From Dehalococcoidia bacterium (GTDB taxonomy: Bacteria; Chloroflexota; Dehalococcoidia; Tepidiformales; Tepidiformaceae): a stretch of DNA of 42,136 nt. The translations under genes and the position numbers were made by a program. Below are positions 2 to 38,866 of the stretch, piece after piece. Position 1 is the stretch's first letter, and each line of letters starts with the position of its first letter. The notes under the pieces are model-generated. The model made no database searches and had not been told where the DNA came from. It saw nothing but the letters and a program-made list of their open reading frames with translations. Location: positions 1-42,136 of the forward strand of contig JAGQHB010000098.1 in the NCBI GenBank assembly GCA_020432045.1, given 5' to 3'.

Positions 2-169
2 GGAAGCCTCGGCGATGGGTTCGCTGTAGCGGCCGGCGAGTCCGATGAATGGGTCACCGTGACAACGAGCGGCAGCTACCCGTTCATCATCCCCTGGCTG
101 GGCAGCCAGACGATCTCCATCGAGGCCGCGGCGGAGATGCGGAAGGAGGGCTTCCGCAGTGGTCCGTAG
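2..169 (+). CDS. TadE-like pseudopilin, C-terminal fragment
   Basis: This open frame enters from the left edge and ends at TAG 167-169. The 55 visible residues include alternating hydrophobic strands (VTVTTSGSYPFIIPWLG), then a segment with ISIEAAAEMRKEG. This resembles the C-terminal end of TadE-like proteins, where a VTVxVxYPF...P strand precedes an 'ASA.MR.E' tail. TadE-like proteins are inner-membrane pseudopilins that work with Tad/Flp pilus or transfer machinery. The next gene starts at GTG 159 inside this frame, so the two are probably translationally coupled. The N-terminal transmembrane helix lies outside the window, so the call rests on the tail and on the neighbours. Confidence 0.6.
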   Translation, partial: GSLGDGFAVAAGESDEWVTVTTSGSYPFIIPWLGSQTISIEAAAEMRKEGFRSGP

Positions 170-608
170 GCTCCGCACCGTCACACAGAAGGCAGGTGGT
201 GAGTCCGGGCAGGCACTCGTAGAGGCGGCGCTCGCGATCCCGGTCCTGCTCATGTTGGTCTTCGGCGTGGTCGCCGCGGGTCGCATCGTCGAGGCCAAGA
301 TCGCAGTGCAGGCAGCAGCGCGAGAGTCGAGCCGGGCGCTGGCGGTGGCGCCGTCGGAAGACCAGGGCGTCTCCGATGCGTTGACCGCCGGAGAGAACGT
401 CGCCGCCGGCTATGGACTCGACGACGACCGGCTCACCATCGAGGTTGACTCGGGCGGCTTCAACCGTGGCGGCACCGTGACCTCCGAGGTCCGCTACAGC
501 GTCTCGCTCTCCGACCTGCCGCTGCTGAGCTTCATGGACGTGGACGTGGGCGCCAGCCACTCGGAGCGCATCGACATCTACCGGAGCCGGGAGGTAGCAG
601 CGCGATGA
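159..608 (+). CDS. TadE-like pseudopilin
   Basis: The protein has 149 residues. After a short basic N-terminus comes the TadE hallmark, ESGQALVEAALAIPVLLMLV, which is one acidic/glycine-rich prepilin-like stretch followed by a single transmembrane helix. The remaining part has the usual AxxAARESSRALAVAP segment and a strand-rich C-terminus. TadE-family proteins are minor pseudopilins anchored in the cytoplasmic membrane and facing outward. The start is GTG 159, overlapping the preceding TadE-like gene. The stop at 608 overlaps the ATG of the next gene (605). Coupling to a TadG-like gene and a lipoprotein suggests a single surface-apparatus operon. Confidence 0.8.
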   Translation: MVRRLRTVTQKAGGESGQALVEAALAIPVLLMLVFGVVAAGRIVEAKIAVQAAARESSRALAVAPSEDQGVSDALTAGENVAAGYGLDDDRLTIEVDSGGFNRGGTVTSEVRYSVSLSDLPLLSFMDVDVGASHSERIDIYRSREVAAR

Positions 609-1036
609 ACGTTGTCCGCCGGCTGCATGGTGACGAAGGCCAGGTGCTCGTGATGGTCGCGCTGATGATGGTGGGCGTCGTCAGCGTCGTCGGGCTCGTC
701 TCCGATGGCGGGCTGGTCTTCGCCCAGCGGCGCGACCTCCAGAACGTAGCCGACGCTGCCGCCGCGGCGGGAGCGATGCAGATAGACGAGGCCGTCTACC
801 GCTCGACGGGTGAGGTAGTCCTCGACGAACAACTGGCACGTGATGCCGCGGCCCTCTACCTGGATACCGAAGGCGGTCTCGACTACCTGGTCAACGTCCT
901 GCCGGACCGCGTGGAGGTTGCGGTGTCGAGGCAGGCAACAACCGGCTTCCTGCGGGTCATCGGCATCGACGGCGTCGAAGTGAGTGCCAGCGCGTCCGCT
1001 GAGCCGCGCTACGGCGTCGAGAGCGCGGGGCCGTAG
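605..1036 (+). CDS. TadG-like pilus assembly protein
   Basis: The protein has 143 residues. It opens with DEGQVLVMVALMMVGVVSVV, the 'GQ' plus single-helix signature of TadG/TadE-like proteins. This is followed by DGGLVFAQRRDLQNVADAAA, the strongly conserved 'D.g......lQ.aaDaAAlAga' segment of the putative Flp pilus-assembly TadG-like N-terminal family. The short form lacks the von Willebrand A domain found in long TadG proteins. Such short forms are common in Gram-positive and Chloroflexota Tad loci. ATG 605 overlaps the upstream stop by four bases. The protein is likely anchored in the cytoplasmic membrane with its C-terminus outside. Confidence 0.82.
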   Translation: MNVVRRLHGDEGQVLVMVALMMVGVVSVVGLVSDGGLVFAQRRDLQNVADAAAAAGAMQIDEAVYRSTGEVVLDEQLARDAAALYLDTEGGLDYLVNVLPDRVEVAVSRQATTGFLRVIGIDGVEVSASASAEPRYGVESAGP

Positions 1037-1047
1037 GAGGCGTGCAG

Positions 1048-1584
1048 ATGGACTGGAGAGCCGTCACGACGGGCATAGCGAGCAGCCTCCTGGTAGTGGC
1101 GGTGGCTGCGGCGTGCGGTGATGACGATGCGGACCCGACGCCGACCGCGACAGTCGCCGCAAATCCCAGCCCGTCGCCGACGGCCCCACAGCCAACCGCT
1201 ACCCCCGATGCCGAGGCTGAGGTGATCACGGCCTATCTCCGCTACTGGGACCTCTACGCCGAGGCCGTTCTCAATCTCGACCACAGCGGCCTCATCGGGG
1301 CGGCATCAGACGAGGAACTGCAGCAGGTACAGGAGGAAATAGAGACTCTTCGCGCGCAGGGCGTTGCGCTTCGCGTCGTGATTGAGCACCGACCCACCGT
1401 GATCGAACTCACCACCACGACCGCCACGGTGTTCGACGAGATGACGAACAACAGCTTCTTCGTCGATCCCGAAACGCATGAGCCCCCTGAGGGTGAAGGC
1501 AGCGGCGAAACCCTGGTCGACACGTTCTTTCTCGAGAAAGTAGATGGACAATGGATAGTCGTTCGCAGCATCAGGCAGAACTAG
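1048..1584 (+). CDS. Predicted lipoprotein with NTF2-like fold possible
   Basis: The protein has 178 residues from ATG 1048, which sits seven bases after a GGAGG at 1036-1040. An in-frame GTG at 1042 is too close to that site. The N-terminus is a lipoprotein signal peptide with lipobox VAAACG. A Thr/Pro-rich linker (DPTPTATVAANPSPSP) follows. The rest, with AYLRYWDLYAEAVLNLD, a Glu/Gln-rich helix, a strand-rich middle and a final DGQWIVVRSIR, looks like the Ala/Tyr-rich helices plus sheet of NTF2-like proteins, but this is inference. It probably sits on the outer face of the membrane next to the Tad-like proteins. Its last 34 bases overlap the next gene. Confidence 0.7.
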   Translation: MDWRAVTTGIASSLLVVAVAAACGDDDADPTPTATVAANPSPSPTAPQPTATPDAEAEVITAYLRYWDLYAEAVLNLDHSGLIGAASDEELQQVQEEIETLRAQGVALRVVIEHRPTVIELTTTTATVFDEMTNNSFFVDPETHEPPEGEGSGETLVDTFFLEKVDGQWIVVRSIRQN

Positions 1585-2492
1585 CCCAGAGCATTCGTAG
1601 GTGGTTAGCGTGCCTGGCGGCCGCCGCTTTGGCCCTTGTCGTTCCCCTGGCGGCGCTCGCTGACGATCCGACTCCCGGTGGAGCAGGAACGCCTCGCAGC
1701 AATTCGCGAACGGCCAGCGCGACCGTGAAATCGGGCCCGAATGGGGTCACCGTTTACATACGAGTGACGCAGGAGTCTCCGGGAAGTGCAACGGGCTCAG
1801 CGTCCAGTACTACCGTAAGCACCGGCAACTCGCGGATCTGCCGCATCAGCGCCCAGAACATCGGAATCGTGCTCTCAAACTCGTCCTGGTATCAGGCTGA
1901 ACAGGCTGCTCACCCCGATAGCGTCTTCGGCAGCGTGAGCTGCGACGACGGCTTCTTCGCTTTCATTTGGATTCCCGTGGGCACGCCGGCTGGTGGAAAC
2001 GTGCAGGTGGTGTTCGTCGACGACGACGGTGTCGACCCGGTCGCGATCGCCCTCGAACTCCTCAACCACCTCCCGATCCCGGACATCGCCATCGACGCCA
2101 ACCCGGCGACCGGTCTTGTCGCACTGCCCTCCTGGTTCTGGCTAGACGGCTACGACGGCTCGCCCATCAGCTCCTCGGACGCGCTGCCGGGCGTCGCCGT
2201 TGACGTGGAGGTTGAGCCGCTGGTCTACCGCTGGTCTTTCGGCGATGGGACGACCGCGGAGACCACCTCGCTCGGACAGCGCTATCCCGCCGAGAGCGAC
2301 ATCCGCCATGTCTACGAACAGTCCTCGCTGGCGGCCGGCGGCGCCTACTCCGTCACGGTGGAGGTCACGTTCGCGGCACGGTATCGCGTCAACGGCGGGG
2401 CGTGGGAAACGCTCGACCCGATCACCCGATCATTCAGCAATGACTACGCGGTCCAGCAGCTCCAGTCCGTCCTGGTGGGGCAGCAGCCGTGA
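1551..2492 (+). CDS. Secreted PKD-domain protein
   Basis: The protein has 313 residues. A Sec-type signal peptide (basic start, then LACLAAAALALVVPLAALAD) suggests export. The central part carries a Ser/Thr-rich strand region. From about residue 220 there is a PKD-like fold with YRWSFGDGTTAETTS and YSVTVEVTFAARYRV, the usual 'W.FGDG......' and 'Y.Vtv.v' strands. PKD domains are extracellular Ig-like modules in surface proteins. ATG 1551 lies inside the lipoprotein gene, and the stop overlaps GTG 2489 of the next gene, so this is one coupled operon. No enzymatic motif was seen. A role as an outer component of the pilus or transfer apparatus is inferred from context. Confidence 0.75.
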   Translation: MDSRSQHQAELAQSIRRWLACLAAAALALVVPLAALADDPTPGGAGTPRSNSRTASATVKSGPNGVTVYIRVTQESPGSATGSASSTTVSTGNSRICRISAQNIGIVLSNSSWYQAEQAAHPDSVFGSVSCDDGFFAFIWIPVGTPAGGNVQVVFVDDDGVDPVAIALELLNHLPIPDIAIDANPATGLVALPSWFWLDGYDGSPISSSDALPGVAVDVEVEPLVYRWSFGDGTTAETTSLGQRYPAESDIRHVYEQSSLAAGGAYSVTVEVTFAARYRVNGGAWETLDPITRSFSNDYAVQQLQSVLVGQQP

Positions 2493-5400
2493 GCACGAGG
2501 GATCTCGCGGCAGAGCGAGACGCAGCGTCCGGCGGTGGCTGGCTCGGCCCGGCAGCGATGATCGCTGCTTGTGCCACGGTCGCAGTCGGCCTCTGGTCGC
2601 TGACGGGACCGCCGACGATGCTCACTTCGCCGCCCGACTGGAGCCACATCCGGGACGTGCTGACCGGCTCCCGGCTCAGCGATCAGGACGTCATCACCGT
2701 CACGATCGGCATCGGGTGGGTCGTCGTCGCGTACCTGTTGCTTTCGATCGTCGTACGGCTCGCGCTCGGCCTCGCCGGCCTGCTCACCGGGCAGGCAGCC
2801 TGGGTGAGGAGCGGGCTTCGCATCACCGCTCCGCTGACGCTCCCCATCGTGCGCCGGGTGGTCGACGGTGCCCTTACCGGAACGATTCTGTTCAGCGCCA
2901 CGTTCCACACGCCGTCGGCGGCGTTCGCATCCTCGGCGGCAGCGACTGCGAGCGTAGAGGCTTCCCTCCAAGGGGAGATGGCTTCGTTTGCCGGACCGGC
3001 GACCAGCCCTCCAAGCGCTCCAGACCTTTCGGCGGCGACCGTTCCTGCTACCTACACCGTGATGCGAGGCGACCACCTCTGGGGCATCGCGGAGCGCTTC
3101 CTTGGGGACGGCTTCCGTTGGGTCGATATCTGGAAGCTCAACTCACAGCGCGCGATGACGGACGGACGGGCCTTCGTGGACCCGAATCTCATCTATCCCG
3201 GCTGGCAACTGGAGCTTCGGCAGGACGTTAGCACCGCTGAGCCCGAACGGCTCGATGAGGAAGAAGACCTCGGTGCAACGCCGGACCCGGAACCGACGCC
3301 AGAACCGTCCCCGGTGCCACCGACTCCCGACCCGACAGCGGTCGCCCCCATACCAACACCAACGGTGATCCCGGGTGGACCGGTCGCCCCCGCTGACGAT
3401 GCGGGAGGCGGGCCGGACCTTTGGCCCTCCCTGCCGGCAGTGCCGGCGCCTGACGCTGGCGTCGTGGCCACGGCCGCGGCGATCACGGTCGGTGGTGCCG
3501 CGATGCTGCTGGTGTTTCGCCGCACCCGGCAGCGGTCATGGCAATCCAACGGCCGACGCGAACGCCGGCCAGCCGGGTCAGGCGACGCGGCTCGCGTGCT
3601 GGCCACAGGTACAGCGCTCTTGTCGGCGCTGTCGGAGCTCGATTTCGCGTCTACGAGCATCGTCCTCGTGCGCGAGTCGGACCGGTACCTGGAGTTCACG
3701 CTCGACTGCCCGCCGGGCGATGCCGAGGCGCTGGTCGAATCCCGCTATACAATCGCCCGCCAGCTCGGATGCGCCGTCGATGGCGAAGTCCTTGGGGCGA
3801 CGACCGTCCGGCTGAAGCTCTCGCGGATGAGTCAGCTCGCAGCGGCGCTGCTCGCCGACGCCGACGGCCGTGAGCAGCCACTTCTCGTACCGGTCGGCGC
3901 TTCGGATTCCGCCATCCACTACCTCAACCTTGCCGCCGTTGGGAGCGTCCTGGTCGTCGGTGGACGGCTGGAGGGACGTGATCTCCTCGCAGGCTGGTTC
4001 ACCACCCTCGACTCGCTCCACCCGGATGGGACCGTAGCAGTCGTCGCCGACGAGGCTGCCTCGGATCCCCTTGGCGAGTGCCTGGAGTTGCTGCCCGGTC
4101 CAGCCGATGACGCCGATCCGCCCGCCGATTCGCCCTCGGCCTTTGCCCGGTGGCTGGAGGATAAGCTGATTGCGCGGGACGAGGAGCCCGACAACCCGGT
4201 GCTCCTGGCGCTTCTGGGGCCGAGCCCCGAGCCAGCCAGCGCCGTGGCCGAGATGGAAGGCGTCCTTCGGCAAGGTCCAGCGCGAGGTATCTTCGTGATT
4301 GCGTTCGCTGAGACGGCCGATGGCATCGACACGCGGCAGTCGTTCGGAGCCAGTGTCATCTTCGGCGCGGACCAGGATCCCGGTGGCTCCAGTGCGATCA
4401 CCCTGACCCTACCGCACGTGCCTCCGCTCCATCTCGAGCCGGTCGTGGTACGGCGACAGGTTGCGCACCGCCCTCGCAGTGATGCCGCAACACCAGTGCC
4501 GGCGCCGACCGAATCCACAACACCCTCAGCACCTCACAACGGCCGCACCCCATTGGCAACCCGGTCGGAGGACGACGAGGAACTCGCCGCCGACGATGAC
4601 GAGCCCCGTGCGCCAGAGCTGATAGCCCCGCCGTCGGAAAACGGGAGGCATCCGGTAGACGCCGCGACGGCTCCTGCGGTGTCGGGCGCCACACCACTCG
4701 GGGCCATGGACAGGCAGGCCTCGCTCCCGCTCGCTGGACCCGATGGGGAGTCGGCTGCCGAGGATGGCCCCGTGTTCCGCGCCAGGCTGTTCGGGACATT
4801 CCGTGTCGAGACAGGCGCCGGCGAGGTCGATGGCTGGTCGATCCAAAAGGCGCGGGAGCTGCTCGCCTATCTTCTCGCCCACGGCGGTTCGTCGGTCCTG
4901 CGCGACACCGCGGCGGAGGCGCTCGGCCTAAGCGGGGACAACCAGGGAGGACATCCGCTTCCCAACGCCGCCTACTACGCCCGGCGCACGCTCAGCCGAG
5001 CGGTACCGGATTTTGAGGGCGACATCCTCATCACGGCGCGCCAGCGGTACGCGCTGCGGGCGGGCCTCTTCCGGACGGACGTGGACGCCTTCGACGCACA
5101 CCTCGCCCGGGCCGAGCGTCTGCAGGGCTACGAGGCCCTGGTCGAGTACCAGCGGGCGCTGGAACTCTGCACGGCCGATTTCCTCGCGGACGAGGACTAT
5201 GAGTGGGCGGACGCCTATAGGCGCGACTACCAGACGCGGTTCATCACGGCCGCCCACCGCGCAGCGAAGTTGGCGTGCGAGTTGCGTGACCCGAAGCTCG
5301 CGCTTCGCGTCTACGACGCCATCTTGCAGAGAGACCCCATCGACGAGGAAGCGGTGCGCGAGGCGATGCGCTCCTACGCCGCGATGGGAGACAAGAACTC

Positions 5401-5530
5401 CGCGAAGCGCATGTACAAGAAGCTCGTCGAGGACCTGCGCGAGGCGCTTGATGACGATCAAGCGGAACCGATGCCAGAGACGACAAAGCTGGTTGTTAGT
5501 CTCCAGGCATCATCGATTCGTGGTGGCTAA
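2489..5530 (+). CDS. LysM - pseudo-FtsK - SARP/BTAD membrane regulator
   Basis: The protein has 1013 residues. Hydrophobic segments lie near residues 18-40 and 68-98, with a possible one near 125-150. A LysM domain starts at Y189 (YTVMRGDHLWGIAERFLGDG). A Pro/Thr linker and a further helix near 325-345 follow, ending in basic RRTRQRS. The segment of about 470-630 resembles an FtsK/SpoIIIE ATPase in outline: LVVGG where Walker A would be (478-495) and VLRQGPARGIFVIAFAE (592-608) aligned with the 'GRAaGIHLilATQ' segment. However, it has no GKS/T. The C-terminus, from V762, is an OmpR-type winged helix (RLFGTFRVE, SIQKARELLAYLLAHGG) followed by a BTAD helical repeat (about 866-1005), the layout of AfsR/SARP activators. 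LysM probably binds cell wall outside, and the regulator lies inside. Start GTG 2489 overlaps the upstream stop. Confidence 0.82.
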   Translation: MSTRDLAAERDAASGGGWLGPAAMIAACATVAVGLWSLTGPPTMLTSPPDWSHIRDVLTGSRLSDQDVITVTIGIGWVVVAYLLLSIVVRLALGLAGLLTGQAAWVRSGLRITAPLTLPIVRRVVDGALTGTILFSATFHTPSAAFASSAAATASVEASLQGEMASFAGPATSPPSAPDLSAATVPATYTVMRGDHLWGIAERFLGDGFRWVDIWKLNSQRAMTDGRAFVDPNLIYPGWQLELRQDVSTAEPERLDEEEDLGATPDPEPTPEPSPVPPTPDPTAVAPIPTPTVIPGGPVAPADDAGGGPDLWPSLPAVPAPDAGVVATAAAITVGGAAMLLVFRRTRQRSWQSNGRRERRPAGSGDAARVLATGTALLSALSELDFASTSIVLVRESDRYLEFTLDCPPGDAEALVESRYTIARQLGCAVDGEVLGATTVRLKLSRMSQLAAALLADADGREQPLLVPVGASDSAIHYLNLAAVGSVLVVGGRLEGRDLLAGWFTTLDSLHPDGTVAVVADEAASDPLGECLELLPGPADDADPPADSPSAFARWLEDKLIARDEEPDNPVLLALLGPSPEPASAVAEMEGVLRQGPARGIFVIAFAETADGIDTRQSFGASVIFGADQDPGGSSAITLTLPHVPPLHLEPVVVRRQVAHRPRSDAATPVPAPTESTTPSAPHNGRTPLATRSEDDEELAADDDEPRAPELIAPPSENGRHPVDAATAPAVSGATPLGAMDRQASLPLAGPDGESAAEDGPVFRARLFGTFRVETGAGEVDGWSIQKARELLAYLLAHGGSSVLRDTAAEALGLSGDNQGGHPLPNAAYYARRTLSRAVPDFEGDILITARQRYALRAGLFRTDVDAFDAHLARAERLQGYEALVEYQRALELCTADFLADEDYEWADAYRRDYQTRFITAAHRAAKLACELRDPKLALRVYDAILQRDPIDEEAVREAMRSYAAMGDKNSAKRMYKKLVEDLREALDDDQAEPMPETTKLVVSLQASSIRGG

Positions 5531-5571: not shown

Positions 5572-6195
5572 TCATCCAGGCCGGAGAACGCGTGCACCGA
5601 CTCCTCGGCGCCGGAATGGATTGGGGTAAAGAGAATCCTCGATCCTACGCCATCCGCCATTGGGCAAGCTGCCCTCGCGCGCAAAGCCCAGGCGCATCGT
5701 CCGCTTCGCCAGTCCGCTGTAGCTGAGGGTGGTTTGCGTCCGATGCTTAAGATGGACGAGGTGCTCGGCGGTGCAATTTGGCGGCACGACGCCTAGTGAT
5801 TCCAGTTGCTGTCGAAACGCACTCTCCGAGAACAAGAGCTCGGCGGCGAACACTTCGGCTCCGATTTCCACCATTGCGCTCTCGTTAGAAGCGTCGCAGT
5901 AGGACAGGATGCTCCCGGCGTCCACGAGATGATGCTTTAGCTCGTGGCCAAGCGTGAAGATGTATGGGTCGTCTGGCAAAGCGGCGTTAACCATGATGGT
6001 CGGACCGAGGTCGTCATTGAAGTAGGCCCCGCGCAGTCGCTTCAATGGTCCCCGCCAGCGGTCTAGTCGGACGCCCTCGGCCCGGAAGATGCGGGCGAAG
6101 TCGCGTTTTGTGACGCGTTCCGGCGAGAGGCCGAACCTGTCCCGGACCTCGCCTGCGAGGAACTCCATGCGCGAGTAGTACTCAGTCCGCGTCAC
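5572..6195 (-). CDS. ImmA/IrrE-family metallopeptidase
   Basis: The protein has 207 residues from GTG 6195, which overlaps the end of the upstream XRE gene and has a GGAAG seven bases before it. A later ATG at 6168 gives 198 residues. The zinc-protease signature FTLGHELKHHLVD (HExxH at residues 84-88) is followed by EIGAEVFAAELLFSES, the second, Glu-bearing helix of the family. ImmA/IrrE proteases cleave XRE-type repressors in mobile elements (as in ICEBs1) or stress regulators. The upstream XRE partner fits that role. The frame stays open far upstream of the start, but that part only shadows the XRE gene. It converges on the LysM-SARP gene. Confidence 0.85.
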   Translation of the reverse strand: MTRTEYYSRMEFLAGEVRDRFGLSPERVTKRDFARIFRAEGVRLDRWRGPLKRLRGAYFNDDLGPTIMVNAALPDDPYIFTLGHELKHHLVDAGSILSYCDASNESAMVEIGAEVFAAELLFSESAFRQQLESLGVVPPNCTAEHLVHLKHRTQTTLSYSGLAKRTMRLGFAREGSLPNGGWRRIEDSLYPNPFRRRGVGARVLRPG

Positions 6196-6592
6196 CCTGT
6201 GTCTTCCGTTTCCGACCCGGCCCGGGCCGACCGCCGCCGGCGTAAAGGCTGCGTGCCTTCCTGAACTCCGCATATCGGCTGAGTTCCTCGAGATCAGCAG
6301 CATCCAGCTGTCGAGCAGTCCGCAAGAGAGCCGCGACTCTATCGTCCTCATCCGAATTGTCACGTGGGAAGAAGCCGAGGATCGATACGCCGAAGAACCG
6401 AGCGAGTTGGTCCAGATCATCGAGCGTGGGCTTGTAGGTCCCGGTCTCCCAGCGGGAGATCGTGTTCCCAGTCTTCCCGAGCGCTTTCGCCAGGGCCTCT
6501 TGAGAGAGGCCCTCACCGCTGGCGTACCCAACCCGCAAATCTCGAATGCGCTGGCCGACGAACTCGGTCAACGGAGTGGAGCGAGAAGTCAT
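6182..6592 (-). CDS. XRE-family transcriptional regulator
   Basis: The protein has 136 residues from ATG 6592, preceded by GAGG at seven bases. Earlier in-frame starts lack such a site. Residues of about 11-67 form a classic HTH_3 domain: QRIRDLRVGYASGEGLSQEA, then LGKTGNTISRWETGTYKPT and a helix LDDLDQLARFFGV. The tail is charged and has no known domain. It overlaps the ImmA/IrrE gene, and such pairs act as a repressor and its antirepressor protease in integrative elements. The divergent region (6593-6754) separates it from the DUF2188 gene, so it could control itself, that gene and the defence operon beyond. This is inference. Confidence 0.85.
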   Translation of the reverse strand: MTSRSTPLTEFVGQRIRDLRVGYASGEGLSQEALAKALGKTGNTISRWETGTYKPTLDDLDQLARFFGVSILGFFPRDNSDEDDRVAALLRTARQLDAADLEELSRYAEFRKARSLYAGGGRPGPGRKRKTQGDAD

Positions 6593-6639
6593 CGCCTGAC
6601 CTCGATTCCCTGTTTCAGGATGACATTCTCCCACTGGCG

Positions 6640-6670
6640 TTGACAGCACGCAAAGCTTCGATCAATCCTA
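6640..6670 (+). promoter_or_regulatory. Candidate promoter for the DUF2188 gene
   Basis: A perfect TTGACA lies at 6640-6645. The best -10 match at a 17-19 base spacing is poor (CAATCC/AATCCT/ATCCTA). It lies in the divergent region between the XRE gene and the DUF2188 gene, so it may be a regulated promoter. The weak -10 makes this a low-confidence call. Confidence 0.28.
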
Positions 6671-7540: not shown

Positions 7541-9519
<1,979 letters not shown>

Positions 9520-9523
<4 letters not shown>

Positions 9524-10956
9524 AGCTAGAGAATCTGGGCCAGCACCTGGACGCAGGCGGTCAGATTCTCAAGACCCGAGACGACCATGTTCCCGTGCCC
9601 CTGAGCCGCTGCACAGAGCCCGTAGACCCCAGTAAACCATTCACCGTGCCGAAAGAGGTGGACTGCTCGTGGGCGATAACGGAGGAGCCCTTCGGTCCGG
9701 AGAGGATACGGCCTCGGATCGAGCCGTGGTTGACGGCCCTTGTCCAGTCCGAGCACCTGTCTTTGCTGGTCGGCTCCGGTCTCACACACGGGGTTCATGG
9801 GCTCGCAACGCCGCAGTCGCTCCCTGGGATGGGAGGCATCTCGTTCGACGTCCTAGACGACGAGATTCAGGAGGAAGCGCGGCGTACTGCCAAGCTAGCC
9901 GGACGTGACCCAGGGAACTTCGAGGACCAGATCCGTGCTGCCAACGAGTTGCTGCGCGGTCTGGAGATCATCGGCGCGACTAAGGGCGAGAGTGCCGGGG
10001 AGCGGAAAGACGCCGAGGCTCTACGGAAGTGCCTCACGGCCGCTCTTGAGTCCTTCGCGGGCTCGATCCTTGATGGGGAGCGTGACCTGGTAGCGGCCCC
10101 AGTCGAAATGCGCACCGAAGCGTTCAATTACCTCGTCAGCTTCCTGATGAGCTTCGCGAGCCGAACTGGCACCCGTGAACGGTTGAATCTGTTCACCACG
10201 AACTACGACCGCTACATCGAAGCTGGCGCTGATGTTGCGGGGCTTCGACTCATCGATCGATTTGTCGGCACTCTGTCGCCGGTGTTCCGCGCATCTCGCC
10301 TCGATATCGACCTGCACTACAACCCACCTGGCATCCGCGGTGAGCCACGCTACTTGGAAGGCGTCGCTCGTTTCACAAAGCTGCACGGATCCATCGACTG
10401 GGTGGACTCGGGCGATGCGATTCGCCGCGTCGGTCTGCCGTTCGGTGCCCCAGAGGCCATGCCGTACTTTCCCGAGGGAGGGTTTGAAGGTGATCGCGCG
10501 ATGCGGCTGATGGTCTACCCCAATGCCGCTAAGGACCGGGAGACCGCCTCCCACCCCTATGTGGAGCTGTTCCGCGACTTCGCTGCGACGATCTGCCGGC
10601 CCAACAGCACTCTTGTTTGCTACGGCTATAGCTTCGGCGATGAGCACATCAACCGCGTGATCGAGGACATGTTAACGATCCCGTCCGCGCACTTGGTGGT
10701 TATCGCCTACAGCGACTCCCTTAGCCGCGTCCTGAGCACGTACGAGAGGCTCGGGCGACATGCACAGGTTACGCTCATGCTCGGTGACCACTTGGGCGAC
10801 CTCCGAGCACTTGTGGACCATTACCTTCCGAAGCCGGCGATTGACCGCACTACGTTCCGCATGGCGGAACTGCTCAAGGCACGCTGGGCTAGTGGGGAGA
10901 GCGCCCGCACCACCGACGAAACCTCGCGGGCCGAGGCGGATGGATCAGAGTCATGA
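9520..10956 (+). CDS. SIR2-family NAD-consuming defence effector
   Basis: The protein has 478 residues from GTG 9520, overlapping the hsdM stop by four bases. The longer frame that begins at 9322 only shadows hsdM. SIR2-like motifs are LVGSGL (G85, the nucleotide-binding loop), LFTTNYDRYIE (226-234, the conserved T-N-Y/D), KLHGSIDW (K287, H289) and YGYSFGDEHIN (368-378). These are typical of the SIR2_2 family of antiviral NAD hydrolases, as in Thoeris ThsA, DSR and SIR2-HerA. About 75 residues precede the core. The family depletes NAD when activated by phage. The next gene, a HerA ATPase, overlaps by four bases, giving the standard SIR2-HerA pair. Its location between hsdM and hsdS is unusual. 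Confidence 0.87.
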
Positions 10957-13058
10957 GCCAGACACCATTCGAACACGCGGGGAGCTTACAGGTCGGCACG
11001 GTGGACTTTGTATCTCCTGATGAGATCAAGGTTGCGCTCGACATCGACGCCCCGGAGTCCGTCGCCCTCAACACGGGGACGCCCCGGCCATTCCCACGAG
11101 TAAACGGATATGTGCTGGTTCCCGTCGATGAGGGATTCCTGGTTGGCCAGGTTGTGTGGTTAACCGTGGAGCGATCGCCGTTCCCGAAACGGCGCGGCAT
11201 GCAGGACTTCGGCCTCGTGGACCTGCCGTACCCGCAGAGGAAGCTAAGCATGCACCCGCTCGGAATGCTGCGATCCGCGGGAGCGGGTTACGCGTTCAGT
11301 CGGGGTGCGGACGTTCTGCCGTCGGTCGGGGCGGCAGCTGTACTGCCCACCGATGCCCAACTTCGCTCGATCGTGGAATCGGGCGAGCGGCGGCGCGTCA
11401 AGATCGGCACAAGCCCTCTCGCAGGCGACGCTGACGTATGCATCGACCCGGATCGGATCTTCGGACGCCATCTCGCGATCCTTGGCAACACGGGCAGCGG
11501 CAAGTCGTGCTCAGTCGCGGGACTCATCCGCTGGAGTCTCGAACAGGCTCATGACGTGCAGGCTGCGAAGGCCGGCGACGGAGACTGCCCGAAGTATCCC
11601 AACGCCCGGTTCATCGTGTTAGACCCCAACGGCGAGTACTCGCGCGCCTTCGGTGACGATGACATGGCGAAGGCTCGCATCTTCAGGGTGGATCCCGGAG
11701 TGGCCGGAGCGGCGTTAAAGGTCCCCCTTTGGTTCTGGAACAGCGCTGAGTGGTCCTCATTCACGATGGCGACCGCAAGAACACAGCGACCGTTGCTCAG
11801 GCGCGCTCTCCGCGAAGTCAAAGCAGGCCGATTGGGCGTGGCTGGCGCTTCCGCCGAGGAGAGGAAACTGGCACTGCGAAGGTATTTGTCATCGCGGCTG
11901 ATCGCTGTTCGTGAAGAGCTTCGCTCGGGAACTATTCAATCCGACGAAAGCAGGTTCGGATTCCGTCTGAGAGCCATCGGCGCGGACTTGCTACCTAAGA
12001 TGGTGGAATTTCCGGATAACGGCCTTGATTCAGTGCAATCTGCGATCCGGGCTGCGCTCGCAGCAACGCACAACAGCTTCGACAAGAACGGTGAAACTAT
12101 CGAATATTACCGAGCGTTCTCCGAGGAACAGATTGAAGCGGTCATTGATGCCTTGCAAACTGCCGTCGAGTCTGTCGGCGGTATTGTTTACCAGGATGGA
12201 CCAGACGAGGACGTTCCGCTCCAATTCCGTGGGGCTGACCTCGTCGATCACCTGGAAAGCCTCGCTCAGCAGGAAAACGTTAGTCAGTACCTTGACTTTC
12301 TTATCAGCCGCATGCGGACCTTTCTCTCCGATCGCAAGATGAGGTCGATCATCGCCGATACCGAGGAGACCACCATCGAGTCCTGGTTGAACGACTACGT
12401 TGGCTCAAACAATGCTGCGGACGGCTGTGTGTCTGTAATAGACTTGTCGCTGGTTCCTTCCGAGGTCGTCCATGTCGTAACAGCCGTGATCGCCCGGATG
12501 ATCTTCGAGGCGCTTCAACGCTACCTGAAGCTCAACGGTGTGACGCTACCGACAGTGCTCGTCATGGAAGAGGCACACACATTTGTCGGACGCTACAGGC
12601 AGGACATGGACGAGCAAGACTCCGCGACGGTGTGTTGCCAGGTTTTCGAGAGGATCGCCCGCGAGGGTCGGAAGTTCGGGCTAGGTCTTGTCCTGTCGTC
12701 CCAGCGGCCTTCGGAACTGTCTCCGACTGTTCTCTCCCAATGCAACACGTTTCTGCTCCATCGGATCACTAACGACCGCGACCAGGAGCTTGTGAATCGA
12801 CTCGTCCCCGACAACCTGCGGGGACTGCTGCGGGATCTGCCGTCTCTGCCGTCTCAGACAGCCATCCTGCTTGGCTGGGCTTCCGAGCTACCAGTGCTCG
12901 TGCGGATGAACGATTTGCCAACGACGCAACAGCCCCGGTCCGACGACCCCAAGTTCTGGGACGTCTGGGTTGGCAAGGCTGCTCGCACAGCAGACTGGGG
13001 ATCCGTTGGAGCAGATTGGCAGGCGGGATCGGCACCGGTGCCGGACGGCGGCGTATGA
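10953..13058 (+). CDS. herA: HerA/FtsK-type ATPase (DUF87)
   Basis: The protein has 701 residues. Residues 10-90 look like the HAS-barrel start of HerA (VGTVDFVSPDEIKVALDIDA...VNGYVLVPVDEGF). Walker A is GNTGSGKS at 178-185, and Walker B is VLVMEEAHTFVG with E539-E540. Arg-rich REGRKFGLGLVLSSQRPSEL, the usual sensor/arginine segment, follows near 570-590. DUF87/HerA proteins form hexameric rings that move DNA or act as the regulatory scaffold for SIR2. The start ATG 10953 overlaps the SIR2 stop (ATGA), and the stop overlaps ATG 13055 of hsdS. So one operon seems to make both the SIR2-HerA machine and the R-M subunits. Confidence 0.9.
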   Translation: MSQTPFEHAGSLQVGTVDFVSPDEIKVALDIDAPESVALNTGTPRPFPRVNGYVLVPVDEGFLVGQVVWLTVERSPFPKRRGMQDFGLVDLPYPQRKLSMHPLGMLRSAGAGYAFSRGADVLPSVGAAAVLPTDAQLRSIVESGERRRVKIGTSPLAGDADVCIDPDRIFGRHLAILGNTGSGKSCSVAGLIRWSLEQAHDVQAAKAGDGDCPKYPNARFIVLDPNGEYSRAFGDDDMAKARIFRVDPGVAGAALKVPLWFWNSAEWSSFTMATARTQRPLLRRALREVKAGRLGVAGASAEERKLALRRYLSSRLIAVREELRSGTIQSDESRFGFRLRAIGADLLPKMVEFPDNGLDSVQSAIRAALAATHNSFDKNGETIEYYRAFSEEQIEAVIDALQTAVESVGGIVYQDGPDEDVPLQFRGADLVDHLESLAQQENVSQYLDFLISRMRTFLSDRKMRSIIADTEETTIESWLNDYVGSNNAADGCVSVIDLSLVPSEVVHVVTAVIARMIFEALQRYLKLNGVTLPTVLVMEEAHTFVGRYRQDMDEQDSATVCCQVFERIAREGRKFGLGLVLSSQRPSELSPTVLSQCNTFLLHRITNDRDQELVNRLVPDNLRGLLRDLPSLPSQTAILLGWASELPVLVRMNDLPTTQQPRSDDPKFWDVWVGKAARTADWGSVGADWQAGSAPVPDGGV

Positions 13059-14515
13059 TCCCCGCGCTGAAGCCCTACCCCGGTTACAAGGACTCCAGCG
13101 TGCAGTGGCTTGGGGCAGTTCCTGAGCACTGGGAAGTGCGGCGAATGCGGAATGTCGCGGAGCTGCGGGTTAGCACCATCGACAAGCACGTCCGAGAGGA
13201 CGAATTGCCGGTCCGGCTTTGCAACTACGTGGATGTGTACAAGAACGATCGCATCCGACCGGGCATGTCGTTCATGTCTGCCACCGCCCGCGCTGAAGAC
13301 ATCTCCCGCTTTCGTCTGGAGGACGGCGATGTGCTCATTACGAAGGACTCTGAAGTTTGGACTGACATCGGAGTCCCAGCTCTCGTGGAGGGGCGCGCCG
13401 ACGACCTCGTGAGCGGCTACCACTTGGCCCTGCTGCGCCCGCGTGCTCAGACATGCGTAGGCGCCTTTCTCCTCCGTGCTTTGCAGAGCCGCCCAGTCGC
13501 ATACCAGCTCCACGTCGAGGCAACCGGGGTTACCCGCTATGGGCTGTCTCATGATGCCATCAAGTCAGTTTGGCTCCCGGCCCCACCCCTTCCCGAGCAG
13601 CATTCGATCGTCCGGTATCTCGACTACATGGACCGGCGCATCCGGCGATACATTCGCACGAAGCAGAAGGTCATCAAGCTCCTGGAGGAGGAGAAGCAGG
13701 GCATCATCCATCGCGCCGTCACGGGCCAGGTCGACGTCCGCACGGGCCAGCCCTACCCCACCTACAAGCCGTCGGGCGTCGAGTGGCTCGGCGATGTGCC
13801 GGCGGAGTGGGAGGTGGTTCCGCTCAAGCGGGCATTTGTCTCGCTTGACTATGGGGTATCTGAATCGGCAACAGATCATGGGAACATCCGGTTGCTGACT
13901 ATGGCACACATTCGGGCGGGCGAGGTCAACGTGCCAGAGTCAGGTGGACTGTCTAAGGTCGACCGGGAACTGACGCTCCAACCCGGTGATCTCCTCTTCA
14001 ATCGGACCAATAGTCTTGAATTAGTCGCGAAGGTCGGGCTGTTCAAAGGCTGGGAAACGCCCGTTAGTTTTGCTTCCTACCTCGTTCGCATGCGACCCCG
14101 TGCACCGCACCGCGCGGAGTACTTAAACATGCTTCTGAATGACATCGCGTTCCTCCGGGCTGCTCGCCGGGAGGCAATCCCGAGCCTCCATCAGGCGAAT
14201 CTAAACCCGACACGGTATGGACGCCTCCCCATTCCACTTCCAGGCGAAGCTGAACAGTCTACAATCGTCGAGCACTTGGAAGACGAGGCGGCACGGGTGA
14301 ATCGCGCGGTTGAGCGTGAGGCTCGGCTTATCGAGTTCGTACGGAAGTATCGCACCCGCCTCATCGCCGACGTGGTGACCGGCAAGCTCGACGTGCGCGA
14401 AGCGGCCGCCCTCCTCCCGCACGAGATAGAAGAACCCTTGCAGGACGCCGAGCTCCCGGGGGATGAATCGCTGGAGGGGGAAGACCTGCTGGAGCCCGAG
14501 GATGCCGACGCTTGA
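13055..14515 (+). CDS. hsdS: Type I restriction-modification specificity subunit
   Basis: The protein has 486 residues from ATG 13055, overlapping the HerA stop. The frame open from 13016 adds no credible N-terminus. It has two target-recognition halves, each opening with a signature: GYKDSSVQWLGAVPEHWEV near residue 8 and TYKPSGVEWLGDVPAEWEVV near 238. Each half ends in a conserved coiled region: LPEQHSIVRYLDYMDRRI... then EEEKQGIIHRAVTGQVDV, and EAEQSTIVEHLEDEAARVN... then IADVVTGKLDV. HsdS picks the bipartite target, binds two HsdM and anchors HsdR. The two halves are of ordinary length, so it looks functional. The C-terminal tail is acidic. Its last 14 bases overlap the next gene. Confidence 0.92.
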   Translation: MIPALKPYPGYKDSSVQWLGAVPEHWEVRRMRNVAELRVSTIDKHVREDELPVRLCNYVDVYKNDRIRPGMSFMSATARAEDISRFRLEDGDVLITKDSEVWTDIGVPALVEGRADDLVSGYHLALLRPRAQTCVGAFLLRALQSRPVAYQLHVEATGVTRYGLSHDAIKSVWLPAPPLPEQHSIVRYLDYMDRRIRRYIRTKQKVIKLLEEEKQGIIHRAVTGQVDVRTGQPYPTYKPSGVEWLGDVPAEWEVVPLKRAFVSLDYGVSESATDHGNIRLLTMAHIRAGEVNVPESGGLSKVDRELTLQPGDLLFNRTNSLELVAKVGLFKGWETPVSFASYLVRMRPRAPHRAEYLNMLLNDIAFLRAARREAIPSLHQANLNPTRYGRLPIPLPGEAEQSTIVEHLEDEAARVNRAVEREARLIEFVRKYRTRLIADVVTGKLDVREAAALLPHEIEEPLQDAELPGDESLEGEDLLEPEDADA

Positions 14516-15452
14516 GGTAGAGGGAGTCGCCTGGTCCGGCGCGCACTCGGGGTTGCTGGGCAGGCACACGCTTACAGTCACGGGGCTTCAGATCACCGCG
14601 GCAGCCCTGAGCGTTGGGGCGCCCCTGCTGCACATCCCACTTTCGTTCCATGCGGTGAGCATGGCGCTCTACAAGGCGCTGGGACTTGTGTGCGCTGTGG
14701 ATTCCAGCGGGCCCATGCTCGCTCGACCAGCGGGATATGCCCAACTCGACCCCACGGAGAAGGCGAACATCTCGTTCTGGACCGGGATGACGTTCGCTGC
14801 CCTGGTTGCCGAGTATTGCCTCGGAGTGCCATCGGTTTGGCATGTGTCCAGCATGATCCGGAGTGGCCGGGCCACCCTGACCCCCGGAACGCACGTGATC
14901 GCGGACTTGCTAGGGCAAGACCACCATGGTGGTTGGCACGTCATCGAGGCCAAAGCACGCCAGGGCAATGTCTCGGCCGACGACCGCGCGAACTGGAAGG
15001 CTCAGACCGGGACGATTGCCTCGGTGGCCGGCGCTTCGCCGGCGACGCGCAGCTACTGCCTCACGCGGGTAGGAGACCCGTACACAGTCGAACTCGTGGA
15101 TCCGCCCGAATCTGAGGTGGTCAAGGGAGGAGAGCTCGTCCTCTCTCAAGGCGCCGTAGTCGACTTCTACTATGGGCCTTTTCGAGACTGGCTTACCACA
15201 TCCGTCGCGGACAACGCGGCGCCCCGTCTCCAAATCGACCGGGGGGCGCCACTGACGGTCAGGCACGCGGCGTTCGATCCCAACACGCAGCTCTATTGGT
15301 TCGCGGGCTTGCGCTCCGACGTGCTCGACGCTGTGCAGGCCGGGCGCACGCCAGAGCAGTCGCTTCGCGGCGAATCGTTCAGCATCGCCGATGGCTACGT
15401 AAGATCAGACGGGATTGCTATCGTTAGTTCACCGGAGCCGACGCTGGAATGA
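14502..15452 (+). CDS. PD-(D/E)XK-like nuclease candidate
   Basis: The protein has 316 residues from ATG 14502, inside the 3' end of hsdS. No family is recognised with confidence. Residues of about 122-155 (HVIADLLGQ, then GWHVIEAKAR) contain an Asp (D135), then E149-A-K151. This arrangement fits a PD-(D/E)XK nuclease core: an acidic residue, a short strand, then ExK on the next strand. The N-terminal half is hydrophobic with PLLHIPLSFHAVSMALYKAL, and the C-terminal half is unassigned. It overlaps the methylase-HEPN gene by four bases (ATGA), so the two are probably a functional pair. An inactive or structural role is also possible. No signal peptide is seen. Confidence 0.6.
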   Translation: MPTLEVEGVAWSGAHSGLLGRHTLTVTGLQITAAALSVGAPLLHIPLSFHAVSMALYKALGLVCAVDSSGPMLARPAGYAQLDPTEKANISFWTGMTFAALVAEYCLGVPSVWHVSSMIRSGRATLTPGTHVIADLLGQDHHGGWHVIEAKARQGNVSADDRANWKAQTGTIASVAGASPATRSYCLTRVGDPYTVELVDPPESEVVKGGELVLSQGAVVDFYYGPFRDWLTTSVADNAAPRLQIDRGAPLTVRHAAFDPNTQLYWFAGLRSDVLDAVQAGRTPEQSLRGESFSIADGYVRSDGIAIVSSPEPTLE

Positions 15453-17785
15453 ACACTGACGACCTCATGACGGAGCTTTGGGCCTACCTCGACCAACGTA
15501 GAGGGCTTCAACCGTCGGCCACGCTGGTTGACCGTTGGCTTAGAGAGCGCATCGACACGAACGGGGGCCGGGGAGTCACTCCTGAGTTGCTCTACGCCCT
15601 GAGCAGAGCAAAGGTGCAGTGGTGGGACGGCGAGATGCTCACGGCGGAGCCACTGGCACGTTTCATCGCAAGGGTGGCCGCGATCTACTCGCCGAAAAGC
15701 GTTCTGGATCCGACTTGCGGCGTCGGCGCACTACTACACACGGTCGCTACCACTGTTGGTGCCGCGGTGGTCCACGGTATCGAGATCAACGGTGATCGAG
15801 CGAGGCTGGCTCGGTCCGTGTTGGGGGCGGGCGCTACAGTCGTCGACGGAGACGCCCTGGCGGAGCCTCCGGAGATCCTCGACCGATACGATCTGATAGC
15901 GGCCGATCCCCCACTGGGAGTGCGCGTGCCGGACGGTGTGGATGTGCCCGGGATTGGTTCCGGGTTCCGAGGAGAGTTCGGGCACGCGCTGACCCTTTTG
16001 GCTTGTGAGCGTCTCTCTGATGAGGGGGCAGCCCTCGTTGTCGTGACGCCGGCCTTCTTGTGGGGCAGTGGTGCCGCGAGAATCCATCAGGCTATTCACG
16101 CGTTAGGCTGTCGCATTCGCGCTCTGATCCACCTGCCAGGAGGATCAGTGCCTGAGACGAGCATCGCCAGCTACCTCGTGGTGTTGGAACGTGGCCGACA
16201 GTCGGACGTCTTCGTGGGGCAGTACGATCCGGACGAAGGCCATCAGGAACAGCTGGTCGCGAACTTCAGAAGAAGCCGGTCAGGGCCACAGCCGGCGCTT
16301 GGCCGCCTCTGCCCTCTGGAGGACTTCAAGGGATTCGAGTCCTTCGCCGCCTTGGAGCGCCTGAAGCGACTTGCCAGGAATGCCGGTTGGAAGGGCGCCC
16401 CGGCCGCGGAGGTGATCACGGGGCACTCCGTTCTGGGCCACCGCCGATCCGAACCGCTGGCGCACGGTCCGAACAGCTGCTACCTGCGCCTAATCGGTCG
16501 GCCGCTGGCCGTGCTGGACCCGGATCAGCTGCCCGGATCCGGGCAGCACCGGGAAGTGTTGCATCTGCACCTCAACCCGACGCATGCGGACCCGCGGTAC
16601 ATGGTTCACTGGTTCAACGCGAGTCAGATCGGCCAGGCCACTCTGGCGATGGTCACACGGGGTGCAGTGATACCTCGGGTCGACCGCACGAGCCTGCTCC
16701 ATGCCACGCTCTATTTGCCGTCGATCGCCGAGCAGTCGCACGCGATCGAGGGGGCATCCCGCCTTACCCAAATCAGGGCGGCGGCCGATGAGCTCGAGGC
16801 GGCCCTGTGGGAGGGTGGCAATGACGTTGCGAACATCGTCCGGGAGATCGCGACGATCAATCAGGAGGACCGCTTCGAAGACTGGATCGAGACGTTGCCG
16901 TTTCCTCTAGCTTCTATCCTCTGGCGGCATCACGCGGGAGGTGATTCGGCTCGTGAGCGCTACGAAGTGCTGCTTCACTTCTTCGAAGCCACGGCAGCGT
17001 TTCTCGCCACCGTCCACCTCAGTGCTTTCATGAGTGCTGATGATCTCTGGAGAGAACATGGGCGGGAGCTGAATCTCAAGCTCACCAGCCAGCGCCTGTC
17101 ACTCGATCGGGCCACCTTCGGTTCGTGGAAGCTCGCTGCAGAGTATCTCTCAAGCGCATCCGCCGCATTGGTTCAGGAGCCGGAACAGGCCGAACGCTGG
17201 CAGCGCCTGTACGGAACATCCAACCGACAAGTGTTGACCATGCTTGGCCGGCCCGAGCTGCGCGCCGCAGTGCAGCGCGCGAACCGCATCCGCAACGACT
17301 GGAGCGGTCACGCCGGCGCCGTCGGAACGGAGACTGCCAAGCAAATCCACGACGAACTCGTCGAGCTCGTCCACACCCTACGCGGAGTGTTCGGCCGCGC
17401 ATGGCTCGGCTATGAGCTCGTCCAGCCCGGCGAGGGACGCTACAGAGGCGGTGTCCATCACTACCGGGCGCGGCGCCTAATGGGTACCCGTAGCGCCCCT
17501 TTTGAGGAAGTGCAGCTGGAATCGGTTCAGCCACTCGAGGCCGATGCCCTGTACCTCTTCGACAGCGCCAATCGCACCGGCCTGCGCCTCCAGCCGTTCG
17601 TCCGTGTCATGCCATCGCCAGAGAAGCGCGCTAACGCGTGCTTCATCTTCAATCGGCGAGAGGCGGACAGGTTTCGCTTCGTTTCTTATCACTTCGAAGA
17701 AGAGTCCGAGATGCAGGACACGTCCTCCGACATTGAGCAGGCGCTGGGTCGCCTGCACATGTTCGATGCGGAGTCTTCCGAATGA
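15449..17785 (+). CDS. N6-methylase-like / specificity / HEPN fusion protein
   Basis: The protein has 778 residues. The N-terminal third is an AdoMet methylase fold. Motif I is VLDPTCGVGALL (85-96), and an acidic 'GIEINGDR' follows. Motif IV is AADPPL with D153-P154-P155-L156. The usual aromatic after PP is replaced by Leu, so catalysis is uncertain. Residues of about 300-455 look like an HsdS-type module (HWFNASQIGQATLAMVTRGA, PSIAEQSHAIEGASRLTQI). The C-terminal third is helical and carries RNDWSGH at 615-621, the R-N-x4-H motif of HEPN RNases. About 90 residues then follow, with LFDSANRTGLRLQPFVRVMP. ATG 15449 overlaps the upstream stop and the stop overlaps hsdR. It is not a standard HsdM. 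Confidence 0.75.
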   Translation: MNTDDLMTELWAYLDQRRGLQPSATLVDRWLRERIDTNGGRGVTPELLYALSRAKVQWWDGEMLTAEPLARFIARVAAIYSPKSVLDPTCGVGALLHTVATTVGAAVVHGIEINGDRARLARSVLGAGATVVDGDALAEPPEILDRYDLIAADPPLGVRVPDGVDVPGIGSGFRGEFGHALTLLACERLSDEGAALVVVTPAFLWGSGAARIHQAIHALGCRIRALIHLPGGSVPETSIASYLVVLERGRQSDVFVGQYDPDEGHQEQLVANFRRSRSGPQPALGRLCPLEDFKGFESFAALERLKRLARNAGWKGAPAAEVITGHSVLGHRRSEPLAHGPNSCYLRLIGRPLAVLDPDQLPGSGQHREVLHLHLNPTHADPRYMVHWFNASQIGQATLAMVTRGAVIPRVDRTSLLHATLYLPSIAEQSHAIEGASRLTQIRAAADELEAALWEGGNDVANIVREIATINQEDRFEDWIETLPFPLASILWRHHAGGDSARERYEVLLHFFEATAAFLATVHLSAFMSADDLWREHGRELNLKLTSQRLSLDRATFGSWKLAAEYLSSASAALVQEPEQAERWQRLYGTSNRQVLTMLGRPELRAAVQRANRIRNDWSGHAGAVGTETAKQIHDELVELVHTLRGVFGRAWLGYELVQPGEGRYRGGVHHYRARRLMGTRSAPFEEVQLESVQPLEADALYLFDSANRTGLRLQPFVRVMPSPEKRANACFIFNRREADRFRFVSYHFEEESEMQDTSSDIEQALGRLHMFDAESSE

Positions 17786-34728: not shown

Positions 34729-35538
34729 TTAGCCGCCGGGCGCCGCAGGCCCTTCGGGGACAACCAGGAGCGGACGGTCGGCATTGTGACTGAGCCACTG
34801 CGCCGTACCGCCGAGGTGCCGGCCCCCGAGCCCTGTCGTCCCGTGGCCGCCGACCACGATCAGGCCCGCGTCCATCGTGCGCGCCGCGGAAAGGATCGCA
34901 ATCCCGGCGCGCCCACGCATCCGGATGGTGCTTTCGGAGAACTGCGGAACGAATGCGAGATACTCGTCTGCCGGCACAGAACCGGGCTCAAGGACCTCGA
35001 CTTCGACGATTGAAATCCCGGGCGACAGCGCACGCGCGACTGAGCTCGCCTGGTTCGCGAGGGCGGACCCGTCCATCCCCACTACGGCCCGCTCAACCCG
35101 CGCCGGTGCCCCAATGCGCGGTGGCAACAGGATAAAGGGCGATTGCAGGTGGTGAATAACGTTTTCCCGGCCGCGGCGGAGCAGGGAACGTGCAAACGCA
35201 CCGTGCTCGCCGGCTGCTAGCAGGAGTAAGGCGCCGTGGGCCTCACCCGCGACCTCGGGGACCACTGTTTCCGGCATGCCAGTTTCCACACGAGTGCGGA
35301 GGTCGAGGCCGCTCACTGACTTGCTCGCGGCAAGCAACGAAAGCATGTCTTTCGCCATGGCCGTGGCGTTCTCCGCCAGCTCCGTGGTGTTCACGGGGTC
35401 GATCACATGCAGCAGCGTGAGCGAGACGCCGGCCTGCCGCGCGAGCGCAACGGACCATGGGAAGCCAACCCCGACCTCCTCCGGATGACCGAGGACGGCC
35501 ACAATGCCGGTCACTTCTCGTTCGGGTGCGGGAGACAT
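34729..35538 (-). CDS. Tandem universal stress protein (UspA)
   Basis: The protein has 269 residues with two UspA-type halves. The first (1-140) has VALARQAGVSLTLLHVIDPV and a segment ending in SPFILLPPRI. The second (150-265) has ERAVVGMDGSALANQ, where MDGSALA fits the ATP-type start, and VVGGHGTTGLGGRHLGGTAQ, close to the G-2x-G-9x-G-S/T nucleotide pattern but with G-rich changes. UspA proteins support stress survival, often with ATP binding. ATG 35538 directly follows the TAA of the RND gene, and an AGGAGG inside the RND end serves as its ribosome site. This operon order suggests a response to the same toxic agent as the pump. Confidence 0.86.
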   Translation of the reverse strand: MSPAPEREVTGIVAVLGHPEEVGVGFPWSVALARQAGVSLTLLHVIDPVNTTELAENATAMAKDMLSLLAASKSVSGLDLRTRVETGMPETVVPEVAGEAHGALLLLAAGEHGAFARSLLRRGRENVIHHLQSPFILLPPRIGAPARVERAVVGMDGSALANQASSVARALSPGISIVEVEVLEPGSVPADEYLAFVPQFSESTIRMRGRAGIAILSAARTMDAGLIVVGGHGTTGLGGRHLGGTAQWLSHNADRPLLVVPEGPAAPGG

Positions 35539-38670: not shown

Positions 38671-38697
38671 ACATGCGCTCCGATGGGGGTTCGTGAT

Positions 38698-38727
38698 ACT
38701 ATGAAAAGGAATTCCGCTTCTGGTCAA
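38698..38727 (-). promoter_or_regulatory. RND promoter with a palindrome in the spacer
   Basis: On the minus strand TTGACC (38722-38727, -35) is 18 bases from CATAGT (38698-38703, -10). GGAATTCC (38708-38715) lies in the spacer, flanked by AA and TT. A palindrome in the spacer is a common place for a TetR operator. It precedes the RND start at 38670 by 28 bases. This is a prediction from the bases only. Confidence 0.5.
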
Positions 38728-38866
38728 TGGCGATCGGTGGGAAACTCGGAAAAGGAAACGGAAAGGTGACGTACGTCCGGGTGTGGGCTTGGGGAACGGC
38801 GAGCGGCCCGGGAGCGAGCTCGCGGAGGGCGGTTGGCCCGTGCCAGGGCTACAGGTCTTGGAACTG

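Follow-up and report, generated by a model that had tools for sequence, protein, structure and literature searches.

We analysed a 42,136-nucleotide stretch of DNA from a Dehalococcoidia bacterium (hereafter the window), which is the entire contig JAGQHB010000098.1 of a 3.48-Mb draft genome (GCA_020432045.1), and focused on a single open reading frame (2489-5530, + strand) that starts with GTG and encodes a protein of 1013 aa at the end of a row of Tad pilus genes. From the N- to the C-terminus, the protein comprises three predicted transmembrane (TM) helices, a LysM domain, a Pro-rich linker, a fourth TM helix, a degenerate FtsK alpha + beta region and a SARP module of winged helix and BTAD. 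An earlier note on this DNA had placed LysM, FtsK-like and SARP domains in one membrane protein, and the single reading frame, its Pfam matches and its end-to-end homologues confirm that claim. The features of the operon and of the protein are as follows.

159..608, +: TadE-like minor pilin, same operon (PF07811, 5e-12)
605..1036, +: TadG-like protein (PF13400, 4e-9)
1042..1584, +: putative lipoprotein, conserved in the tad operons of the family (no Pfam match; homologue in most loci)
1551..2492, +: PKD-domain exported protein, directly upstream (PF18911/PF00801; homologue in most loci)
2489..5530, +: LysM / degenerate FtsK / SARP membrane protein, 1013 aa (open reading frame, Pfam, end-to-end homologues)
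2489..2920, +: N-terminal membrane part, residues 1-144, with three predicted TM helices (hydropathy and positive-inside pattern, 31 homologues)
3053..3211, +: LysM, residues 189-241, predicted outside the membrane (Pfam PF01476; PDB sequence match to TsaP)
3212..3451, +: Pro/Thr/acidic low-complexity linker, residues 242-321 (sequence)
3452..3520, +: TM helix 4, residues 322-344, then an Arg-rich stretch (hydropathy; 4-8 Lys/Arg after it in most homologues)
3563..3832, +: FtsK alpha-like domain, residues 359-448 (AlphaFold2 confidence about 70-82 for most; Z 9.4 to FtsK 2iut)
3857..4471, +: degenerate FtsK beta (RecA-like) domain, about residues 457-661 (Foldseek, PF01580 in homologues, profile alignments, Walker A scan)
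4472..4783, +: poorly conserved linker, residues 662-765 (alignment)
4784..5074, +: SARP-type winged helix, about residues 766-862 (Trans_reg_C, PF00486, in relatives; Foldseek to AfsR)
5075..5491, +: BTAD (TPR-like), residues 863-1001 (Pfam PF03704; confident helical model)

Conserved position at the end of tad operons

The gene row from tadE to the LysM-FtsK-SARP gene suggests one transcript, because the gene ends overlap or nearly abut throughout (605/608, 1036/1042, 1551/1584 and 2489/2492), the start of the last gene overlapping the preceding stop by 4 bp (2489 vs 2492). The contig starts within the tadE cluster and so lacks the front of the operon; elsewhere in the assembly, no close relative of the window operon's TadC was found. 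The full gene order can be read in a relative (L028), where CpaB/RcpC, TadZ-like, TadA, TadB, TadC, two TadE, TadG, the lipoprotein and the PKD-domain protein precede the LysM-FtsK-SARP gene. Tad genes preceded this gene in the same order in 20 of the 21 loci examined, within the stretch of DNA fetched for each; at the remaining locus (L115) the sequence starts 334 bases before the gene. The named neighbours included Thermoflexaceae and Dehalococcoidia metagenome-assembled genomes. Relatives close Tad operons in Dehalococcoidia, in other Chloroflexota and on many actinobacterial plasmids (Nonomuraea, Kineococcus, Streptomyces, Micrococcus luteus, Curtobacterium and Kitasatospora); Candidatus Chlorohelix likewise carries the same protein at the operon end. 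This conserved position marks the gene as a component of tad operons. The earlier note had spoken of a transfer apparatus, which here is a Tad pilus and not a conjugation system.

The architecture is not a chance fusion, because profiles of the window family aligned end to end with those of the distant Chloroflexota homologues (L112-L120; 999 columns, E 1.7e-74) and of the actinobacterial homologues (932 columns, E 4.4e-46). BTAD-only matches in relatives, such as a large AAA-type regulator without LysM (L034), were excluded as different proteins. Members of the family are usually annotated as 'LysM protein', 'BTAD regulator' or 'hypothetical protein'.

Two further genes recur beside this one. 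The PKD-domain protein gene (1551-2492, +) lies directly before it in nearly all Chloroflexota loci, and its product is perhaps an external partner of the LysM domain. On the other side, a prepilin peptidase gene often follows; in several actinobacteria (L137, L138, L141 and L048), an A24 prepilin peptidase gene is the next gene after the LysM-BTAD gene.

LysM domain and predicted membrane topology

The LysM of the window protein scored slightly under the Pfam cut-off (E 0.0024; 18.2 bits vs 20.9), while LysM was above the cut-off at the same position in the relatives L027, L028 and L031, and most homologues scored 22-46 bits at the position seen in the window protein. Given these above-cut-off homologues, we assigned the domain to the window protein as well.

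For the topology and for the Walker A scan described below, 31 members of the family were compared. The N-terminal helices are predicted at about residues 20-40, 67-100 and 117-141, the third of which has weak hydropathy in the window copy and is clear in relatives. The common pattern across the 31 homologues was three N-terminal helices, LysM and one helix followed by several Arg/Lys residues (4-8 in most). By the positive-inside rule and the number of helices, LysM is predicted to lie outside the membrane and everything after residue 345, including the FtsK and SARP parts, to lie inside throughout the family. The earlier note had proposed the same orientation, which thus stands as a prediction.

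A degenerate FtsK domain in the middle of the protein

The earlier note had read the middle domain as an FtsK-type motor, likely a dead ATPase, and had proposed structure prediction and comparison with FtsK. The AlphaFold2 (AF2) model of residues 340-665, built from seven sequences, had a low overall predicted local distance difference test score (pLDDT) of 45 and values of about 70-82 for roughly residues 370-450. The top ten Foldseek matches of this model were all FtsK or TcpA motor chains, with FtsK first (best E 9.7e-6), and VIA-align superposed residues 359-448 onto the FtsK alpha domain (Z 9.4, root-mean-square deviation 2.4 A, 88 residues). The RecA-like half was poorly modelled, and independent evidence therefore matters. 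At the same place, the middle domains of four distant homologues (L112, L115, L118 and L120) passed the PF01580 cut-off, and a profile comparison of nine distant homologues with 26 FtsK proteins gave P 97.5% and E 7e-12 over 231 columns. Direct profile matches to FtsK were not significant for the window subfamily alone (P 0.2%) and likewise for the actinobacterial set alone, and the middle-domain profile had no match among PDB sequences. The FtsK identity is therefore drawn from the intermediate homologues and the structure, which together place an FtsK alpha-beta fold in the middle of the protein as had been proposed.

The motifs ARGIFVIAFAE and LVVGG that the earlier note had pointed out are both present, and a GK[ST] P-loop was not found anywhere in the window protein. 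None of the 31 members carried a Walker A GK[ST] in the FtsK-like domain, the sole match to this pattern (L114) sitting in a linker. Opposite the FtsK Walker A motif GATGSGKSV, the distant homologues have GLPGGGTEV and the window family VVGGRLEGRD; opposite the Walker B motif IDE, they have IGE and LLGP, respectively (LLALLGP in the window). The Walker A and B motifs of an active ATPase are thus lacking, as in a degenerate homologue and not a motor. Since the Walker A lysine is missing in 31 of 31 members, the reading of the middle domain as a degenerate FtsK alpha-beta domain, a 'dead' ATPase, is well supported at the level of sequence.

A SARP-type C-terminus

The BTAD of the window protein exceeded the Pfam cut-off (E 3.8e-12). 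At the winged-helix position, Trans_reg_C matches in relatives were mostly just under the cut-off and were above it in L112, L113 and L115; characteristic winged-helix residues are altered in the closest relatives of the window protein (e.g. WPDGD to LSGDN). In the AF2 model of the C-terminus the BTAD helices were confident, and the best Foldseek match of the model was AfsR in the transcription initiation complex 8k60 (266 columns), with 8hvr also found and EmbR listed. The C-terminus thus has the SARP arrangement of an OmpR-like winged helix followed by BTAD, with low pLDDT in the winged-helix part, and its resemblance to AfsR and EmbR upholds the SARP-type regulator named in the earlier note. 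A VIA-align search with the C-terminal model, whose list was filled by generic TPR proteins, was uninformative on the winged helix, and a PDB sequence search with the C-terminal profile returned mainly TPR-like or designed repeat proteins; both were set aside.

A candidate operator at related tad promoters

We compared the cpaB upstream regions of nine related operons (L124-L132). Apart from some near-start positions, they share little but a box that lies 176-194 bp ahead of the start codon. In eight of the promoters, four 11-bp units are followed by TAAAWT (CAAAAT in one), the distance from the box start to the hexamer always being 44 bp, so that a -10-like element stands at a fixed distance from an 11-bp direct-repeat box. 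A lag analysis of the box against column-shuffled controls gave z 4.4 at lag 11, which none of 1000 shuffles reached, and z 2.7 at lag 22, and no other lag in the range of 3 to 24 exceeded z 1; the periodicity was not detectable in single promoters.

A 23-bp pattern searched across ten genomes had six exact matches, all six at tad promoters. The exact match in G014, which was not used to define the pattern, lies upstream of cpaB on a contig that carries cpaB to tadE. When up to two mismatches were allowed, there were ten matches in the ten genomes, eight of them at tad promoters, and the reversed pattern gave two; at this threshold the number of box copies equalled the number of operons in G017 and G007. 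The best match in the window had four mismatches and none was good, as expected with the front of the operon missing. Published SARP operators consist of direct repeats spaced 11 or 22 bp apart, with about 8 bp between the last repeat and the -10 element (PMC10936776; PMC5930380). The box upstream of the related tad operons matches this layout and is hence a candidate operator.

Comparison with known systems

The SARP activators AfsR and EmbR share with the window protein the order of winged helix and BTAD, and the 11-bp repeat geometry of AfsR/SARP operators resembles that of the candidate box. AfsR differs in being a large soluble SARP whose SARP part is followed by additional NOD and TPR domains, whereas in the window protein the SARP part is C-terminal, predicted to be membrane-tethered and preceded by LysM and the dead FtsK core. 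The FtsK/SpoIIIE motors and the coupling protein TcpA have the order of alpha and beta domains in common with the window protein, which lacks the Walker A lysine, has an altered Walker B and, judged by these motifs, would not be a translocase. TsaP of type IVa pili, a secretin-associated periplasmic protein, shares the LysM domain, as found by sequence, but has no FtsK or SARP part. ToxR and CadC are membrane one-component regulators in which a winged-helix DNA-binding domain is tethered to the membrane and an external part acts as sensor; compared by description, they resemble the predicted layout of the window protein, although the domains differ.

A precedent is PAGK_2369 in the Tad locus of the Cutibacterium acnes pIMPLE plasmid, where it directly follows the TadE genes; Table 2 of PMC3666418 lists it with the Pfam domains LysM and BTAD. 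The part of that source dealing with the gene names it a TadB-like/Flp pilus assembly protein and does not describe an FtsK domain, topology, operator or regulatory role (PMC3666418). The LysM-FtsK-SARP family also aligned with a homologue (L139) carried by a different C. acnes plasmid. In the open-licence literature we found no paper on the FtsK domain, topology, operator or role of the protein, which is not proof of absence, and none on the regulation of Tad pilus synthesis in Chloroflexota. The LysM and BTAD pair, tabulated once as "TadB" in a C. acnes plasmid, was thus already known; the placement of a SARP-type regulator within a transmembrane architecture that also contains an FtsK domain appears to be new.

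Proposed role and alternative explanations

In the model that best accounts for these results, and that we consider probable, the protein is tethered to the membrane and bound to the wall, and it activates the tad operon to which its own gene belongs. This gene, co-transcribed as the last of the Tad pilus operon, would encode a membrane-anchored one-component transcription activator, whose LysM would bind peptidoglycan outside and so fix the protein to the wall. In the cytoplasm, the inactive FtsK alpha-beta core would provide a platform for oligomerisation or docking next to the Tad motor, and the tethered SARP module would bind the 11-bp direct repeats in the tad promoter, the likely regulatory target, and recruit RNA polymerase, regulation being presumed positive. 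The state of the wall or the assembly of the pilus machine may be the signal that alters its activity and thereby couples pilus-gene expression to it. If this model holds, the tad operon contains a dedicated regulator with a probable operator, and a dead DNA motor has been reused for signalling. More tentatively, we suggest that the family may be a widespread, undescribed class of transmembrane activators ending Tad operons in Chloroflexota and Actinomycetota, in which a dead FtsK ring is the signal-transducing scaffold between the wall-bound LysM and the SARP module; such a class would make tad transcription directly dependent on assembly of the pilus machine or on contact with the cell wall.

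Several results weigh against the activator model. The winged helix of the window protein itself had no Pfam match, its beta-beta-beta-helix-helix-helix part was modelled by AF2 with low confidence, as was the RecA-like core, and the promoter of the window's own operon is absent from the assembly. Among the related operons, the box is weak or a poor fit in the G015 and G022 promoters, and the 11-bp periodicity was not seen in the promoters of the distant Chloroflexota homologues. The main alternative is that the protein is a structural part of the pilus machine. LysM would then fix the Tad apparatus to the wall, as TsaP does for type IVa pili, TadA would be docked or coordinated by the dead FtsK ring, and the SARP/BTAD part would persist as a TPR-type protein-binding platform without a role in gene regulation. 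The location of the gene among tad structural genes wherever the flank is readable and the LysM sequence match to TsaP fit this explanation, as do a window winged helix weaker than that of its relatives and actinobacterial C-termini so diverged that Pfam often misses BTAD. We nevertheless judge it unlikely, as the winged-helix half is still recognisably Trans_reg_C- or AfsR-like in many members and SARP-like 11-bp repeats occur at the operon promoter.

The conserved box could also serve another regulator, in which case the protein might be a membrane-tethered regulator of non-tad genes and an unrelated factor would read the tad promoter. The link between protein and box is not direct, and two members with an available promoter have a weak box or none; yet exact boxes in the ten genomes occurred only at tad promoters, box copies with up to two mismatches equalled operon numbers in two genomes, and the geometry is that expected for the SARP protein class, which makes this explanation improbable. 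We give least credence, and very little, to the FtsK-like core being a functional motor that acts on DNA despite an atypical P-loop, so that the protein moves or holds DNA, for example DNA taken up through the pilus. It retains the FtsK alpha-beta order, and Tad pili are needed for DNA uptake in the cultivable actinobacterium Micrococcus luteus (PMC4322843), but the Walker A lysine and Ser/Thr and the Walker B acidic pair are lost or altered, and the motif of the window family reads GGRLEGRD.

Neighbouring genes in the window

Directly beyond the tad operon lies a defence island (7541-20781, +) of type I restriction-modification genes. It and the other neighbouring genes are listed below.

7541-9523, +: HsdM
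9322-13058, +: SIR2-like plus HerA pair, inserted between HsdM and HsdS
13016-14515, +: type I specificity subunit (HsdS)
15449-17785, +: second methylase-like gene
17782-20781, +: HsdR
34729-35538, -: universal stress protein gene, just downstream of the AcrB-type RND transporter gene
35539-38967, -: AcrB-type RND transporter

Convergent with the tad operon, a helix-turn-helix (Xre-like) regulator gene overlaps an IrrE/ImmA-type metallopeptidase gene (5572-6649, -), and this pair gave weak matches to the CapH/CapP and RmrA models.

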